Part shown: piece after piece, positions 54,993-63,952 of the stretch
Numbering within the stretch: position 1 is the first letter of the stretch
Layout: every line of letters begins with the position of its first letter
From: Candidatus Krumholzibacteriota bacterium
GTDB taxonomy: Bacteria; Krumholzibacteriota; Krumholzibacteriia; Krumholzibacteriales; Krumholzibacteriaceae
Reading direction: 5' to 3'
Assembly: GCA_016933255.1 (NCBI GenBank)
Contig: JAFGBF010000003.1
Span: forward strand, 124,001 to 188,000
DNA: 64,000 bases
The notes under the pieces: generated by a model
Told to the model about the DNA's origin: nothing
What the model saw: only the letters and a program-made list of their open reading frames with translations
Databases searched by the model: none
Made by a program: the position numbers and the translations under genes

Positions 54993-56075
54993 ATGGAGAA
55001 AAGTCCGGATAGATTGAGGACTTCACAGATCCTTTTTACGCTCGCCAGTTTTGTCGTGGTCGTGGCGGGCCTGCGCGCGGCGTCTCAGATCGTGGTGCCG
55101 TTTCTGCTTGCTACATTCATATCTATAACCTGTTCCGCGCCGCTTTTCTGGATGAGAGGAAAAGGAATACCGGCCTGGCTCGCGATCCTCGTAGTCATGG
55201 TCGGTATCATTTTAATAGGATTTATCATAACGAGCCTGCTCGGAAATTCGATAGACGATTTCTCGAAAAACATTCCCCGGTATGGCGCGGTATTGAACGG
55301 CCAGTACAGGAACCTGCTTTTCTGGGTCGAGGAAAAGGGTGTCGATGTATCAAACCTGGAGCTTGTCGAGATCTTCAATCCCCAGAAAGCGATGCAGCTT
55401 GTCGCGAAGTTCTTCAACAGCCTCGGAGAGGTCCTGACGAACGGATTCCTTATTATAATTACGGTGATCTTTATGCTTCTGGAAGCATCCAGTATTCCGG
55501 CCAAGCTGCATTCTATATTTCGAAATCCCGATGATTCTCTTGCCCAGATAGAGAGGATAACAGCAAACGTAAAGAACTATCTTGCCATAAAAACGATCAT
55601 CAGCCTGATCACGGGAGTGCTTGTGGCGTTTGTGCTATGGCTGATGAAGGTCGATTTTCCGCTTCTCTGGGGGCTTCTGGCTTTTCTGCTGAACTATGTC
55701 CCGAATATCGGATCGATCATAGCCGCGGTGCCTGCGATCCTGCAGGCTTTGATCCAGCACGGTTTGGGCAGAGCAGCAGGTGTCGCCTTCTTTTTCCTGC
55801 TGATAAATCTCGTAATGGGAAATGCTGTCGAACCGAAGTTCATGGGTAAAGGGCTTGGCCTGTCGACACTTGTCGTTTTTCTTTCTTTGATTTTCTGGGG
55901 GTGGGTCCTGGGCCCCGTGGGAATGCTTTTGTCGGTGGTCCTGACAGTGACCGTGAAGATAGTCCTTGAGAGCCGTGAGGACACAAGATGGGCAGCTGTG
56001 CTTCTCGGTTCGCATGTTCCATCTGTCTCGGGTGAGGTCACTCCTGATGATTCTCCCGGTACTGACGCACGATAG
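54993..56075 (+). CDS. AI-2E family transporter
   Basis: Polytopic; LLWGLLAFLLNYVPNIGSIIAAVPAILQAL. Confidence 0.92.
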   Translation: MEKSPDRLRTSQILFTLASFVVVVAGLRAASQIVVPFLLATFISITCSAPLFWMRGKGIPAWLAILVVMVGIILIGFIITSLLGNSIDDFSKNIPRYGAVLNGQYRNLLFWVEEKGVDVSNLELVEIFNPQKAMQLVAKFFNSLGEVLTNGFLIIITVIFMLLEASSIPAKLHSIFRNPDDSLAQIERITANVKNYLAIKTIISLITGVLVAFVLWLMKVDFPLLWGLLAFLLNYVPNIGSIIAAVPAILQALIQHGLGRAAGVAFFFLLINLVMGNAVEPKFMGKGLGLSTLVVFLSLIFWGWVLGPVGMLLSVVLTVTVKIVLESREDTRWAAVLLGSHVPSVSGEVTPDDSPGTDAR

Positions 56076-57063
56076 ATTCGACTGCGGGAAACTTTCCGGA
56101 TTCTGCTATACTGTCTTCGAGAGTATCGATTCCCCGGGGTATCGATTCGAGGAAGGACTCTTTTTTCTTCTCGAAACCCAGAAAGGCAAAGGCCGCGAGC
56201 GCCTGCAGGTTGCGCTGGATAGCGGCTAAAGTGAATTTCTCTAAATATTCCTCAAATGTCTCTTCCGTGATCGCATCGACTTCTTTCAGCCTGTAGTAGA
56301 GTTCCATAAGAAGGGTCTTTCTTGTCCCTGGACGGATCGGGTGATAGAGGCCCTTAAGAATAGAAGCGGCGTCATATATTCCAGGCCCCCTGTGAGCATC
56401 TTGAAAATCGATCAATCGGATCTCGCCGTTTTTGACCATGACATTACGGCACTGAAGGTCTCTGTGCATGAATACGAGCGGTTCAGCAGAGAGCTGTTTC
56501 GCCAGACTGAGCCTCTCGGTCTCCCACCCGTCGGGAATGGAAGAACAGAACCTTCCGATAAATTCTCTCTCGAAATATTTGGTCTCACCGAGAAGTTTCT
56601 CTTCGCTGAAAACATTGTCTTCCAGTATGCCTCTCGCCATCATATCTTTGTTTACCGAAGTCTGGAACATGTAGAGGATGTCTATACATTCTCTGTAGTA
56701 TGAGAGTTCCACTTCCACAGTGCAGTATTTCAAAGCATCTTCCAGATGGATCGAACCAAGATCTTCCATCATCAGAATGCCCTGTTCGCTATCAAAGGAG
56801 TAAAATTCGGGGACAGGTACCTGGTTTTTTCTCAGGAAATCGCCTATTGAGATATAACGTGATAACTCAGATGCTCTGCCGGGCTGTATTATCGCGACGA
56901 TACTGCGTCTGCCGTCAGTGATCCTCAGGAAAAATCTGTCTGATCCGCCTCCGTGGATCATCGTTGAGGGCGAGTCTTGAGGGAACGCACCTCCCGGCAG
57001 GTCGCCTGTAAGTTTGATTGCTTCGGCGGTGTACTGTTTTATGACGTCATCAATCTGATTCAT
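56038..57063 (-). CDS. AmgK-like N-acetylmuramate/N-acetylglucosamine kinase (APH fold)
   Basis: SDRFFLRI, MMEDLGSIHLEDAL, FMHRDLQCRNVMV, LIDFQDAHRGPGIYDAASIL; 4-bp overlap with the nucleotidyltransferase. Confidence 0.85.
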   Translation of the reverse strand: MNQIDDVIKQYTAEAIKLTGDLPGGAFPQDSPSTMIHGGGSDRFFLRITDGRRSIVAIIQPGRASELSRYISIGDFLRKNQVPVPEFYSFDSEQGILMMEDLGSIHLEDALKYCTVEVELSYYRECIDILYMFQTSVNKDMMARGILEDNVFSEEKLLGETKYFEREFIGRFCSSIPDGWETERLSLAKQLSAEPLVFMHRDLQCRNVMVKNGEIRLIDFQDAHRGPGIYDAASILKGLYHPIRPGTRKTLLMELYYRLKEVDAITEETFEEYLEKFTLAAIQRNLQALAAFAFLGFEKKKESFLESIPRGIDTLEDSIAESGKFPAVESIVRQYRENHQE

Positions 57064-58073
57064 CCTGTTTTCATCTCTCCTTCCGGGAAAACGATCGTAT
57101 TTTCGATCGACCTGCCCTCATCAATCACGGAATCTTCCAGTACCACGCAATTTTTCAGGCTGCATCGCCTTCCTATTGCAACATTCGGGCCTATTTCAAG
57201 AAAACCTTGCCAGTCAAGGTCTGGAGGTATCCTCGTGTCCCTGCCGGCATGAAGCGGGATGGGGGGCGGATCCAGAAGAGGTGAAAAGATCTCTTTGCCC
57301 GCAAGGATCCTTTCGTGCAGGCTAAGGAAAGATTCCGGAGTGCCGATTTCGCTCCAACTGAAAGGAGGGTCCGCAGGCACGATATATCCCGCCACGGATC
57401 CGGGTCTTTCATCAATAATATGTCTCAGAATGTCAAGCAGTCCAATCTTCTTACTGGCGGGGAAATATTCGAGTGCCTCCCTCGATATGACGGACATTCC
57501 CGTGTAGCCGCAGCAGCCGGCGGAATCGGAACCTATGGATCGCGCCCCTTCGAATGCGATTATCAGATTATCGTTATCGATCACGACATGCGGAGGGGGA
57601 CTGCAGGTTTCCGGAAGAGAGGGATTTTCCGCCGCCAGGATCATCGTGACCAGCGCCTTCTTCCGGATATGAAACGATACGGCCGGTCTGAAAGAAATGT
57701 TCGTCAGGATGTCGGCATTGGCAAGAAGGACGATCTCTTCATCGATGAGAGATGCCGCCATATTACCGATTCCGCCGCCGGTATCGAGTAAGTCCACTTC
57801 ATGGTGCAGTGTTATCGGCAGCTCTTTTGCTGATATGAACTCCTCGATATTTCCAGAGAGATGGTGGGAGTTGGCGTGCAGGCTTGCAGCTCCTTCCGAG
57901 AGCAGTTTCGCGGCTACAAGTTCTATCATCGGAATACCAAGAATCGGTATCATCGGTTTCGGGATAGAAGAAGTGAGGGGCCTCATCCTTTTTCCGTAGC
58001 CAGCCGCCAGTATCATTCCGGCGGCCTTACCGGAGCTCTTTCCCATTACTGCCTTTCGATCCAGGATATTCAA
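57060..58073 (-). CDS. MurU-like sugar-1-phosphate nucleotidyltransferase
   Basis: GMILAAGYGKRMRPLTSSIPKPMIPILGIPMIE; C-terminal left-handed helix-like tail; adjacent AmgK-like gene. A downstream in-frame start (MGKSSG) is possible. Confidence 0.83.
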   Translation of the reverse strand: MNILDRKAVMGKSSGKAAGMILAAGYGKRMRPLTSSIPKPMIPILGIPMIELVAAKLLSEGAASLHANSHHLSGNIEEFISAKELPITLHHEVDLLDTGGGIGNMAASLIDEEIVLLANADILTNISFRPAVSFHIRKKALVTMILAAENPSLPETCSPPPHVVIDNDNLIIAFEGARSIGSDSAGCCGYTGMSVISREALEYFPASKKIGLLDILRHIIDERPGSVAGYIVPADPPFSWSEIGTPESFLSLHERILAGKEIFSPLLDPPPIPLHAGRDTRIPPDLDWQGFLEIGPNVAIGRRCSLKNCVVLEDSVIDEGRSIENTIVFPEGEMKTG

Positions 58074-58112
58074 GCGCGGGAACAGGCCGGATTACACCTA
58101 TAATGCCGGCTT

Positions 58113-59306
58113 TCAGTATAGAAGATGATCTTTTCTGGCTGCAAGATAATCTTTTTCATCACTTTTCCATGACATAAAGAGCTCTTCGATATCCTGATCA
58201 GAATCTATTGTCTTTCTCAGCAGCCGGCTTCCAGAGAGGATATCTATCGGCATATGTTTCTCTTCATATTCATAGGGGGGAGCGAGCCATTCGAAATCAT
58301 CCGGAAAGATATCAGATATCGATTTTATCAGAATCGCCGCGGTTCTTAAAGGCATGAAGCGGCTGCGATCGGTAATATGCAGCTGGATCCCGCGGCAGAT
58401 CCGTCCGGAGTATTTATCCCAGGCAGGCGAAAAATCGATCGGCCGGAATACCACTCCTTCGAGATTATGACTTTTCAGTACCGAAATGAGTCTTTTCGGT
58501 TCTATCCAGGGCGCGCCGGTCATTTCGAACGGCCGGGTCGTACCGCGCCCTTCGGATATATTGGTCGCTTCCAGAAGGACCATCCCGGGATATACGATCG
58601 CCGTATCGAGGGTCGGGATATTAGGAGACGGCATGACCCACGGCTGTCCGGTTATGTCAAAATACATCTCTCTTTTCCAGCCATCGAGCTTTTTGACCTC
58701 CAGGGCGGATTGCAGTCCCCTGGAAAGGCCTATCATCTGCAGGGCTTCACCTATCGTCAGAGCGTGTCTTACAGGAAAAGGGTACATCCCGACGAAAGAG
58801 AAGAACTCTTCCCGCAGAATGGGGCCTTCGACGACCGAGCCTCCAATAGGATTCGGCCTGTCAAGCACCAGGATCTCGATCCCGGCCTTCGAGCATTCCT
58901 CAAGCATGCAGAGCGCCGTCCAGATGTATGTATACGGACGGGCACCCACATCCGGGAGGTCTATTATCATCATGTCGAGTCCGGCCAGGCTCTCCGGAGA
59001 AGGTCTCCTGGTTTTTCCGTAGAGAGAGTGCACCGGAATATTGAACTCGGGGTGGATATATCCTTCCCATTCGACCATATTGGCCTGCGTGTCACCGCGA
59101 AATCCATGCTGAGGACCGAATATACAGGAAAGGTCTATCCTGTTTCTGACCAGGATCTCCGTTATATGGGTAAGTTCTGATGAGACAGAAGCGTGATTGG
59201 CTAGAAGTCCAACCCTGCGCCCTTTCAGGCAGCTGCATGAATCATCGGCTAATATGTCGCAACCGGTTCTGATCAATTGTCCCTCCATATCCTTACCGGG
59301 AATCAT
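58113..59306 (-). CDS. DUF1343 (NamZ-family exo-N-acetylmuramidase-like) protein
   Basis: GRRVGLLANHASV, FGPQHGFRGDTQANMVEW, DLPDVGARPYTYIWTA, LDRPNPIGGSVVEGPIL, TNISEGRGTTRPFEMTGAPWI. Confidence 0.93.
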   Translation of the reverse strand: MIPGKDMEGQLIRTGCDILADDSCSCLKGRRVGLLANHASVSSELTHITEILVRNRIDLSCIFGPQHGFRGDTQANMVEWEGYIHPEFNIPVHSLYGKTRRPSPESLAGLDMMIIDLPDVGARPYTYIWTALCMLEECSKAGIEILVLDRPNPIGGSVVEGPILREEFFSFVGMYPFPVRHALTIGEALQMIGLSRGLQSALEVKKLDGWKREMYFDITGQPWVMPSPNIPTLDTAIVYPGMVLLEATNISEGRGTTRPFEMTGAPWIEPKRLISVLKSHNLEGVVFRPIDFSPAWDKYSGRICRGIQLHITDRSRFMPLRTAAILIKSISDIFPDDFEWLAPPYEYEEKHMPIDILSGSRLLRKTIDSDQDIEELFMSWKSDEKDYLAARKDHLLY

Positions 59307-61620: not shown

Positions 61621-61650
61621 TTGACACATATTGAAGTGATAGCCCACTAT
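61621..61650 (+). promoter_or_regulatory. Candidate sigma70-type promoter of the ParA-CBM gene
   Basis: TTGACA-N18-CACTAT; lies within the ORF-track upstream extension, supporting a downstream start. Confidence 0.4.
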
Positions 61651-61714
61651 GACGGTGGGAATCCACACCGATGCGCATCATTCGACCGGTTCAAAAGGAC
61701 AGGAGGGGATGTTA

Positions 61715-62791
61715 ATGCGGACGGTCTCGGTCATCAATCAAAAGGGTGGTTGCGGTAAAACCACTATCGCTATCAATCTTGCTGCCGCTCTCGGCAAGAT
61801 CGGCAGCCGTGTTCTTCTTTTGGATCTTGACCCTCAGTCACATGCTTCACTAGGGCTCGATGTTACTTATCACGATGTTCAGCACACTACGTATGATCTT
61901 CTTAGAAATCCCAGGATAATGGTAAAAGATGCTGTTTTTACCGTTAACCCCAGCCTCGATGTCATTCCCTCTTCCCCTGTTCTGAGTGCTATCGAGCAGG
62001 AGCTTTCGGGGAAACCGGGAAGAGAGACAAGACTCGCGCTCAAACTTATGAGGCTTAACAGCAGCTACGACTATGTCATCATCGATTCTCCCCCCAGTGT
62101 AGGGCTGCTGACATTCAATTCTCTCCTGGCTTCGGGAGAGGTGCTTATCCCCGTCGAGCCGAGTTATTTTTCGCTCCAGGGGCTGTCAAGGCTTATGGAG
62201 ACGCTTGAGCTTCTCAAGAGTGAGACAAAACACAAAACAAAAATACATGTAGTCGTCAATAACATAGAAAAGAGGACGACCTTTTCACGTGATATTGTGA
62301 TGGAGCTGGATCGGCACCACGGAGATATCGTCCTGGACAGTACGATAAGCCATTCCGTAAAGTACAAGGAAGCGGCTCTTTGCGGAGTATCGATATTTGA
62401 GATGCCGAGATCCGAAAGGTTGAAGCGGGAGTTCCTTTCTCTTGCCCGCGAACTTGAGGAAAAGAGATCATCTCTGCTCGAGGTAGATAATATCAGGGAC
62501 TGGATGGTAAAACTAAATGGGCCGAAGATAGTCGATTCCGGAGTGGTTTTTACCCTCAAGGCGCCTAACGCGAGAAGTGTAAGCCTGACAGGCGAGTTTA
62601 CAAACTGGTCGCATGAGGGGATCAGAATGCTCAGGGATGAAGACAATGAGACATGGAAGATAGTCATGAATCTTGATCCCGGCGATTATGAATACAGATT
62701 CATAGTTGATGGTGTGTGGATCAAAGATCCCAATAATGTCGACACAGTCCTTAACGAATATGGACAGGAAAATTCTCTTCTGATCGTTTAG
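61715..62791 (+). CDS. ParA-family ATPase fused to C-terminal glycogen-binding (CBM48/AMPK-type) domain
   Basis: INQKGGCGKTTIAINLAAAL, LLDLDPQSHASLGL, YVIIDSPPSVGLLTFNSL; C-terminal VVFTLKAPNARSVSLTGEFTNWSHEGIRMLRDEDNETWKIVMNLDPGDYEYRFIVDGVWIKDPNN. Start 61715 has AGGAGG 8 nt upstream. Confidence 0.92.
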   Translation: MRTVSVINQKGGCGKTTIAINLAAALGKIGSRVLLLDLDPQSHASLGLDVTYHDVQHTTYDLLRNPRIMVKDAVFTVNPSLDVIPSSPVLSAIEQELSGKPGRETRLALKLMRLNSSYDYVIIDSPPSVGLLTFNSLLASGEVLIPVEPSYFSLQGLSRLMETLELLKSETKHKTKIHVVVNNIEKRTTFSRDIVMELDRHHGDIVLDSTISHSVKYKEAALCGVSIFEMPRSERLKREFLSLARELEEKRSSLLEVDNIRDWMVKLNGPKIVDSGVVFTLKAPNARSVSLTGEFTNWSHEGIRMLRDEDNETWKIVMNLDPGDYEYRFIVDGVWIKDPNNVDTVLNEYGQENSLLIV

Positions 62792-62814: not shown

Positions 62815-63633
62815 ATGCCTGACAGAAAAAGATCAAAACGACTTCACGATGTTTCACATCTATTCCTTTCCGGGAGTGCCGGGGCGGACAGCGGGGCCGG
62901 GGTCTCTTTCACAAGCCGTGTCTATCTCTGTATATCGGGAGACCCGTGTTACCGCGGATTTATCTCCTCAGGGCTCTCCTCTGCCGTGTCAGCAGAAAAC
63001 ATACCTGTGACTCTGCTTGAGACGGGGTATTCAATGCCGAATGCCGGATATTATTTTTCTTTCGAGCCGGAAGAATATCTATCGACTACCCTTGGGGGAA
63101 GAAAGGGGTTTAAAAAGAAAGTAAACGATTATCTTAGATATTCCTATGCTTCCCGCTACGCTGACCTGGAAAGGTATGACGATCCTTTCTCCACTCCTTC
63201 AGCTTTACAATTGACGATAGAGGCTTTCGGACCTGCCGTTCCCGGCGGGACGATGGCGGACCAGAAGATCCTTGCCGATCTTTCCTCGAAGCCGGTAAAG
63301 AAATACGATCACATATTCAGCAGAGGAAGGACTCTGGTGATATTTGATTGCTGCGGTGAGGATGACTGGATAGATTATCTCTGCTCCGCTTTCAGGACAG
63401 GATCTTCATCCGATCCGATCTTTGTCATCGGAATGGGGAAGGGGAACGGGCCAGGCCGGGATCCTTCGATTTCCGGTTATTCAGAACGATATCTTGAAAT
63501 GCCGCCGGGATTCATGAAAGATCTCGGCAAACGTATTCCTCCGGTATCGACCTTTATGAGAGGGCTTGCAGGCAGTATTACCCGATCGATAGCCTCCGTC
63601 GAGAAAGAGAGGAGGAAAAATGCGGTCATATAG
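62815..63633 (+). CDS. Hypothetical protein, possible ParA/MinD-fold pseudo-ATPase
   Basis: RVYLCISGDPCYRGFISSGLSSAVSAENIPVTLLETGYSMPNAG parallels MinD/ParA VISGKGGVGKTTLSANLAAAL...VLLIDADLQSPNAG with Walker A lost. Confidence 0.55.
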   Translation: MPDRKRSKRLHDVSHLFLSGSAGADSGAGVSFTSRVYLCISGDPCYRGFISSGLSSAVSAENIPVTLLETGYSMPNAGYYFSFEPEEYLSTTLGGRKGFKKKVNDYLRYSYASRYADLERYDDPFSTPSALQLTIEAFGPAVPGGTMADQKILADLSSKPVKKYDHIFSRGRTLVIFDCCGEDDWIDYLCSAFRTGSSSDPIFVIGMGKGNGPGRDPSISGYSERYLEMPPGFMKDLGKRIPPVSTFMRGLAGSITRSIASVEKERRKNAVI

Positions 63634-63952
63634 CAGCAGGATCAGGGAAGCTGCCGGAAATGGAACGAGGATCAGGCCGGTCAAGATCAGAGACCTGTAT
63701 GACACACTGTGCGACCACCTGATCTGTTTTTCCTCAGGAGTAGAGGTGGAGGCTGCCCTGTTTGAGACCCGGTTCACCGGCCCCGGCGGTATCGCGATAA
63801 TATTGTCACCATATAGCGAGATATTTACGGTATCGATAGGAGGGAGTTCCAGATGTGACGTAAGGGTGAATGATGAACAGAGTTATTTCCGCGCTTTGGA
63901 CCTTTCAATAAAACACCTTCTGACCTGTACTTCCAGAGTTACCCGGCAGTGA
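63620..63952 (+). CDS. Hypothetical 110-aa protein
   Basis: ORF overlapping the upstream gene by 14 bp, same strand; no recognised family. Confidence 0.65.
   Translation: MRSYSSRIREAAGNGTRIRPVKIRDLYDTLCDHLICFSSGVEVEAALFETRFTGPGGIAIILSPYSEIFTVSIGGSSRCDVRVNDEQSYFRALDLSIKHLLTCTSRVTRQ

Follow-up and report, generated by a model that had tools for sequence, protein, structure and literature searches.

A ParA-type ATPase fused to a glycogen-binding domain: a candidate positioning system for alpha-glucan in Krumholzibacteriota and other phyla

Introduction

A gene of a Candidatus Krumholzibacteriota bacterium (assembly GCA_016933255.1) encodes a ParA-type ATPase fused to an AMPK-beta/CBM48-type glycogen-binding domain, and we propose, with a probability of roughly one half, that the protein belongs to a system of the ParA type that positions or tethers alpha-glucan (glycogen) as its cargo. 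ParA/MinD ATPases place chromosomes, plasmids, carboxysomes, flagella and chemoreceptor clusters. The positive basis for adding alpha-glucan to this list is sequence-derived and consists of the architecture of the protein, its conservation as a single clade, its catalytic and glucan-contact residues, a linked partner motif and neighbouring glucan genes; the cellular role assigned to the fusion is thus a predicted one. The gene lies in the stretch of 64,000 nucleotides of contig JAFGBF010000003.1 (positions 124,001 to 188,000) that was analysed here and is referred to as the window.

Results and Discussion

Domains and conserved residues of the fusion protein

61715..62791, + strand: ParA-CBM48 fusion ATPase, 358 aa (ORF list, Pfam, AlphaFold, full-length homologues)
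61701..61706, + strand: Shine-Dalgarno-like AGGAGG, read from the sequence, preceding the ATG at 61715
61715..62470, + strand: ParA ATPase domain, residues 1-252 (Pfam AAA_31 4e-50, Foldseek, conservation)
62531..62788, + strand: AMPK-beta/CBM48 glycogen-binding domain, residues 273-358 (Pfam AMPK1_CBM, AMPK beta alignment, conservation)

An alternative in-frame ATG at 61649 would extend the protein to 380 amino acids, but the start at 61715 is favoured because of the AGGAGG at 61701-61706 and because Met1 is kept in 98% of the homologues (98 compared). The ParA motifs quoted in the initial annotation are all present in this ORF, namely NQKGGCGKTT at residues 8-17 (KGGCGKTT at 10-17), DLDPQ at 37-41 and DSPPS at 124-128, and residues 1-176 match Pfam AAA_31 (E 4e-50, 170.6 bits). 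Among 98 fusion members the deviant Walker A motif with its signature lysine (KGGxGKT), DxDPQ and DxPP are invariant or nearly so. The AlphaFold model, generated with 68 homologues, has a mean pLDDT of 91.8 with its sole dip at residues 251-270, the interdomain linker. Its top Foldseek matches are all ParA/Soj (E about 1e-23, TM-score on target 0.9), the nearest solved ParAs being Soj/ParA structures with 30-38% identity in structural alignments. Lysine or arginine is kept at residues 216 and 218, in a region expected to bind DNA. The fusion is predicted to form an ATP-dependent dimer and to bind DNA non-specifically, to which the two basic residues point only indirectly.

At two positions the fused ParAs differ from their unfused relatives. 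Cys13 (in KGGCGKT) and His43 are found in 98 of 98 fused proteins, whereas the unfused ParAs of the same phylum (n=11) have valine at the Cys13 site in 11 of 11 and asparagine at the His43 site in 10 of 11. The asparagine of M. xanthus ParA, to be compared with the His43 site, is catalytic, and the pocket that receives the ParB arginine in that protein is formed by Y81/E82 (PMC12462528), to which Y60/D61 of the fusion correspond.

The C-terminal part, residues 285-356, matches Pfam AMPK1_CBM (E 2.3e-13, 50.6 bits, cut-off 26.8). Pfam CBM_48 is likewise matched by the protein (37.6 bits against a cut-off of 22.4), while none of the NCBIfam models reaches its cut-off on the fusion. The C-terminus likewise matches the crystallised glycogen-binding domains of AMPK beta-1 and beta-2 (E about 1e-8 to 1e-7), so that the assignment to the AMPK/CBM48 type, rather than to an unrelated Ig family, is borne out. 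W298 (62606-62608), R328, W335 (62717-62719) and N353 align with W100, K126, W133 and N150 of AMPK beta-1, whose sugar contacts have been described (PMC9788615); plant PTST likewise depends on the two Trp to bind starch (PMC4339375). These carbohydrate-site residues, which the initial annotation had proposed as a check, are nearly invariant over 98 fusion proteins (W298 in 98, W335 in 97, R/K at 328 in 92 and N/D at 353 in 96). AMPK L146 and T148 are not retained, their places being taken by Y349 and Q351. From the conserved contacts we infer that the CBM48 domain of the fusion binds alpha-glucan. Three more CBM48 domains are encoded in the genome of the window (G000:C31 44838-47610; L005, L007, L008), two of them on small lipoprotein-like proteins.

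Distribution and origin of the fusion

Of 58 related genomes, 48 contain the fusion, in nearly every case at full length. Within the phylum, full-length copies occur in 38 of 46 good genomes, and 26 of the 30 genera have the fusion overall. In G011, a related genome in which no match was obtained, the contig breaks off at the downstream genes, and the fusion is therefore considered to be missing owing to an assembly gap. Both domains are also spanned in 80 of the 80 best loci from other GTDB species (33-66% identity), a set ranked by whole-query similarity, which favours fusions and hence is no unbiased survey of ParAs. By MAG record title these loci come from about ten phyla: Krumholzibacteriota, Latescibacterota, Eisenbacteria, Omnitrophota, Auribacterota, Desulfobacterota, Rokubacteria, Acidobacteria, Gemmatimonadales, Zixibacteria and Planctomycetota. 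The architecture, which the initial annotation knew from a single genome, is thus conserved well beyond it. Eight of the loci that lacked the fusion anchor in gene calling, where antisense ORFs had been called in GC-rich DNA, were placed by match coordinates. A contig labelled as a Methanomassiliicoccales archaeon carries the fusion beside a GlgB sharing 89% identity with the GlgB of a Desulfobacterota bin (L080 and L088); the contig is probably mis-named or mixed.

When the ParA parts are placed in a maximum-likelihood tree, one branch (support 96/93, 98% of bootstrap trees) splits 46 fused proteins from 19 unfused ParAs of the same phylum. This topology would agree with a single origin of the fusion.

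A linked partner gene with a ParB-like N-terminal peptide

62815..63633, + strand: candidate partner/activator, 272 aa; N-terminus basic and disordered, followed by a degenerate MinD-like alpha/beta domain that lacks a P-loop
62824..62871, + strand: partner N-terminal motif RKRSKRLHDVSHLFLS, residues 4-19; counterpart in other phyla LGRGLEDISHLFLS; resembles the ParA-binding peptide of ParB

The initial annotation saw neither parB nor parS near the fusion. This holds as far as it goes: the window contains 0 parS-like sites at up to 3 mismatches, no ParB-family gene stands beside the fusion, and the canonical parA-parB pair of the genome is located on another contig (L002). Since that pair is separate and the window has no parS, the possibility that the fusion is a canonical parAB component is ruled out. 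What was overlooked, however, is a partner-like gene that starts only 23 bp downstream of the fusion.

The protein encoded by this gene has no match in Pfam or NCBIfam, ParB included. Its AF2 model (pLDDT 80, with low confidence for the first ~30 residues) finds weak Foldseek matches to FlhG/FleN/MinD (E about 4e-4). Clustering of the neighbours revealed that the +1 genes differ in sequence but begin alike, with a basic N-terminal peptide of the pattern '[LG(R/K)GL]xD[IV]SHLFLS': MPDRKRSKRLHDVSHLFLSG in the window, MDKGKKLGRGLEDISHLFLSS in L062, MAKKSLGRGLDEISDIFLST in L066 and MTTARKLGKGLGDISHLFLSG in L070. The canonical ParB of the genome of the window begins MRRTVLGRGLEALIS, and some partners start exactly like ParB (MDKGKKLGRGLEDISHLFLS in L062, as against MRRTVLGRGLEALIS in own ParB). 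What follows the peptide is a degenerate MinD-like domain in the Krumholzibacteriota partners, and in L086, where it is less degenerate, it matches Pfam CbiA; other partners contain HTH_17 (L073) or PAS (L077), and HTH-like sequence is present in L088 as well.

The linkage of the peptide to the fusion was assessed with a profile of 14 positions, for which the distinct sequences of closer relatives served as training set and which was scored at every start codon in fixed intervals, with intervals further downstream, upstream and on the opposite strand as controls. Among 38 loci that had not been used for training, 32 exceed the threshold of the profile at +1, versus 2 of 127 controls (Fisher p 1e-25). 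The shorter pattern D[IV]SHL[FY]LS occurs once in the genome of the window and 13 times in 58 related genomes, at most once per genome; 12 of the 13 occurrences immediately follow the fusion on its 3' side, the remaining one is at a contig end (G011), and the reversed pattern has zero matches in the whole genomes searched. In ParB the N-terminal peptide binds the ParA dimer, and a central Arg/Lys is needed for stimulation of the ATPase (PMC12462528). More generally, the partners of ParA/MinD ATPases activate through a charged N-terminus, the remainder being extremely diverse (PMC10241942). The +1 gene at 62815-63633 is therefore likely to encode the cognate activator of the fusion, and its product would be expected to activate the ATPase.

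The profile motif is found at +1 in 4 of 14 Phycisphaerae loci and in 0 of 19 from Omnitrophota. The latter have at -1 a gene for a conserved, membrane-anchored protein of ~185 aa that begins 'KKDIYEHLAKIYLDAS', its N-terminus being (D/E)IYEHLAxIYLDASxKKKK followed by a hydrophobic segment (L079, L084, L097, L102, L116 and others). This protein may or may not be the counterpart of the partner; since a profile of its motif (IYEHLAxIYLD) does not rise above background, the assignment is only a guess.

A third gene at +2

63620..63952, + strand: third cassette gene, 110 aa; overlaps the end of the partner gene; no known family; at +2 in 13 Krumholzibacteriota loci

Unclassified genes at +2 are found across many phyla (L062 10444-11133, L072 7864-8538, L059 10165-10809, L070 8557-9222, L086 9940-10737). 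In L069, L110 and L089, from Rokubacteria and an Acidobacterium, the partner peptide is fused to a domain that is otherwise encoded as a separate +2 gene, which weakly suggests that the +2 gene is part of the cassette. A relationship between the third gene of the window and the larger +2 genes elsewhere is suggestive only, with an hhalign probability of 16% for its match to the C-terminus of the larger Eisenbacteria gene.

Elsewhere in the window, genes for an APH-fold kinase, a nucleotidyltransferase and a NamZ exo-N-acetylmuramidase follow one another at 56038-59306 on the - strand, as judged by family matches, and resemble a MurNAc recycling cassette (AmgK, MurU, NamZ).

Glucan genes in the neighbourhood of the fusion and in its genomes

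The initial annotation had considered that the fusion might position a glucan-containing body. The gene context lends this partial support. In a genome of the same class (G033; L122 8407-17877) a complete glucan operon stands behind the fusion, all on one strand, with genes for a stand-alone CBM48, two GT4 glycosyltransferases whose nearest models are glycogen synthase, a GH57 branching enzyme, an alpha-glucan phosphorylase, a GH57 protein and MalQ. GlgB adjoins or is near the fusion in Desulfobacterota L088 and its close relative L080, GH57 lies near it in Omnitrophota, mostly at a distance of two genes on the upstream side (9 of the neighbours scanned), and in Eisenbacteria L051 a GH13 enzyme with a CBM48 of its own is close by. 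Small stand-alone CBM48 genes are found near the fusion in L062, L072 and L073, and CBM_48 is the commonest Pfam family among 116 neighbours (Desulfobacterota-like and other loci). All of these loci are individual cases.

Together with the ParB-like partner peptide, these neighbours speak for the idea of glucan-body positioning; what speaks against it is that the genome of the window, like most of its relatives, has no glucan genes near the fusion, and that one related genome with the fusion lacks the common glucan enzymes. The genome of the window does encode a GT5 glycogen synthase, a phosphorylase and three GH57 genes. G036, in contrast, a closed genome of 4.3 Mb with an estimated completeness of 91%, has two fusion copies (G036:C1 960939-962012 and 1789209-1790282), each with its own partner gene, yet no GT5, phosphorylase, GH57 or GH13 was found in it, nor in G045 (84% complete). 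Either glucan is made or met otherwise in these organisms, or their CBM48 has another job. Position 328 is occupied by Gln in one of these G036 copies, and one copy sits directly after ATP synthase genes. Over 58 genomes, the co-occurrence of the fusion with GT5 is weak (38/10 versus 6/4, p 0.23); it was dropped as a functional test on account of that p value and because GT5 misses GT4-type synthases such as those of L122.

A model of ATP-switchable glucan attachment and its alternatives

How could a ParA with a glycogen-binding domain work? We suggest that the ATP-sandwich dimer would bind the nucleoid non-specifically, while its two C-terminal CBM48 arms would grip the surface of a glycogen particle. 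The basic N-terminal peptide of the partner would dock at the ParA dimer interface and trigger ATP hydrolysis, upon which DNA and glucan would come apart. Glucan and nucleoid would in this way be joined by an ATP-switchable link that could spread glycogen along the cell or share it between daughters. Such a wiring is unusual, because in classical systems the cargo is held by the partner and not by the ATPase. This counts against the model, as do the lack of the peptide at +1 in Omnitrophota and most Phycisphaerae and the replacement of AMPK L146 and T148. Tentatively, we would go further and regard the fusion as representing a widespread, undescribed positioning class, in which the ParA itself carries the glycogen domain and a partner with a ParB-like peptide helps to spread or segregate glycogen particles on the nucleoid.

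But does the domain have to bind sugar at all? CBM48-like domains can dock proteins in AMPK/SnRK complexes, and the main rival to a glucan cargo is that the CBM48 of the fusion is a protein-docking module tying ParA to some other protein cargo, in which case ParA and its activator would still work and stored glucan would be irrelevant. The occurrence of the fusion where GT5, phosphorylase, GH57 and GH13 are all absent (G036 and G045), the weak co-occurrence with GT5 and the stand-alone CBM48 lipoproteins of the same genome, which indicate that CBM48 has other uses there, would all be in line with docking. It does not readily explain, however, why the sugar-contacting Trp pair, the K/R and the N, unneeded for docking, should be near-invariant over many phyla, or why a glucan operon, GlgB, GH57 and GH13 adjoin the fusion in separate lineages; we regard it as the less likely reading.

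Alternatively, glycogen bound to the CBM48 might alter the ParA ATPase cycle, which would then control transcription, division or the segregation of chromosomes, comparable to MinD, FlhG or BcsQ. A sensing switch of this kind would fit the HTH_17 or PAS domains of some partners (L073, L077; HTH-like in L088), and BcsQ, a ParA relative among the Foldseek matches, is tied to polysaccharide synthesis. In AMPK, glycogen is sensed through this type of domain (PMC2642990). Then again, HTH and PAS are both absent from most partners, and the basic residues of the DNA region and the ParB-like peptide suit a spatial system equally well or better, which makes sensing improbable as the main function. A chance fusion or assembly artefact without common function can be dismissed, as the protein is found at full length in dozens of independent assemblies, forms a single clade and has invariant residues in both domains.

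If the positioning of alpha-glucan by the fusion is true, no other ParA-type machinery would be known so far that serves a storage polysaccharide. The glycogen of E. coli gathers in condensed form at the old pole, which leads to asymmetric division (PMC12706056); a conserved ParA-CBM48 system would let bacteria place and share glycogen and thus deal with the very problem posed by such old-pole deposits. The DISHLFLS peptide moreover offers a sequence handle for the partners of 'orphan' ParAs, and the two-tryptophan site and the activator peptide make the idea directly testable.

Comparison with known systems

The open literature on ParA with CBM48, AMPK1_CBM or glycogen, as far as searched, yielded no account of the fusion or its partner family. 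The ATPase and the activator logic look conventional, whereas cargo module and partner family have no precedent, and the system would thus be a variant within the ParA/MinD positioning systems. With ParABS (Soj/ParA and ParB) it shares the ParA fold and motifs and a partner whose N-terminus is like the LGRGL peptide of ParB, but it differs in the CBM48, Cys13 and His43 of the fusion and in the lack of a ParB fold or parS beside it. McdAB likewise combines a ParA-type ATPase with a diverse partner that activates through a basic N-terminus and with a metabolic body as cargo (PMC13052382, PMC10241942); here, however, the cargo module is on the ATPase itself and the partner is unrelated in sequence. 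No microcompartment or carboxysome family is among the top 25 neighbour families listed.

Other systems resemble single elements of the proposed one. AMPK beta and plant PTST have a CBM48 with a Trp pair for glycogen or starch, but joined to a kinase scaffold or a coiled coil and not to a ParA ATPase. BcsQ and FlhG/FleN are ParA/MinD relatives tied to polysaccharide synthesis or polar organelles, and FlhG/FleN weakly resemble the second domain of the partner; they lack a CBM, however, have other partners and are less similar to the fusion. Finally, the PHB-granule tethers PhaM and PhaF link a storage granule to the nucleoid, as is proposed here for the fusion; the review in which PHB and polyphosphate tethers are covered does not mention glycogen (PMC13052382). 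Different from the fusion, PhaM and PhaF rely on histone-like DNA-binding domains, have no ATPase and serve another polymer. Taken together, we suggest that the proposed system would be nearer to a switchable version of the PhaM/PhaF tether than to ParABS or McdAB.
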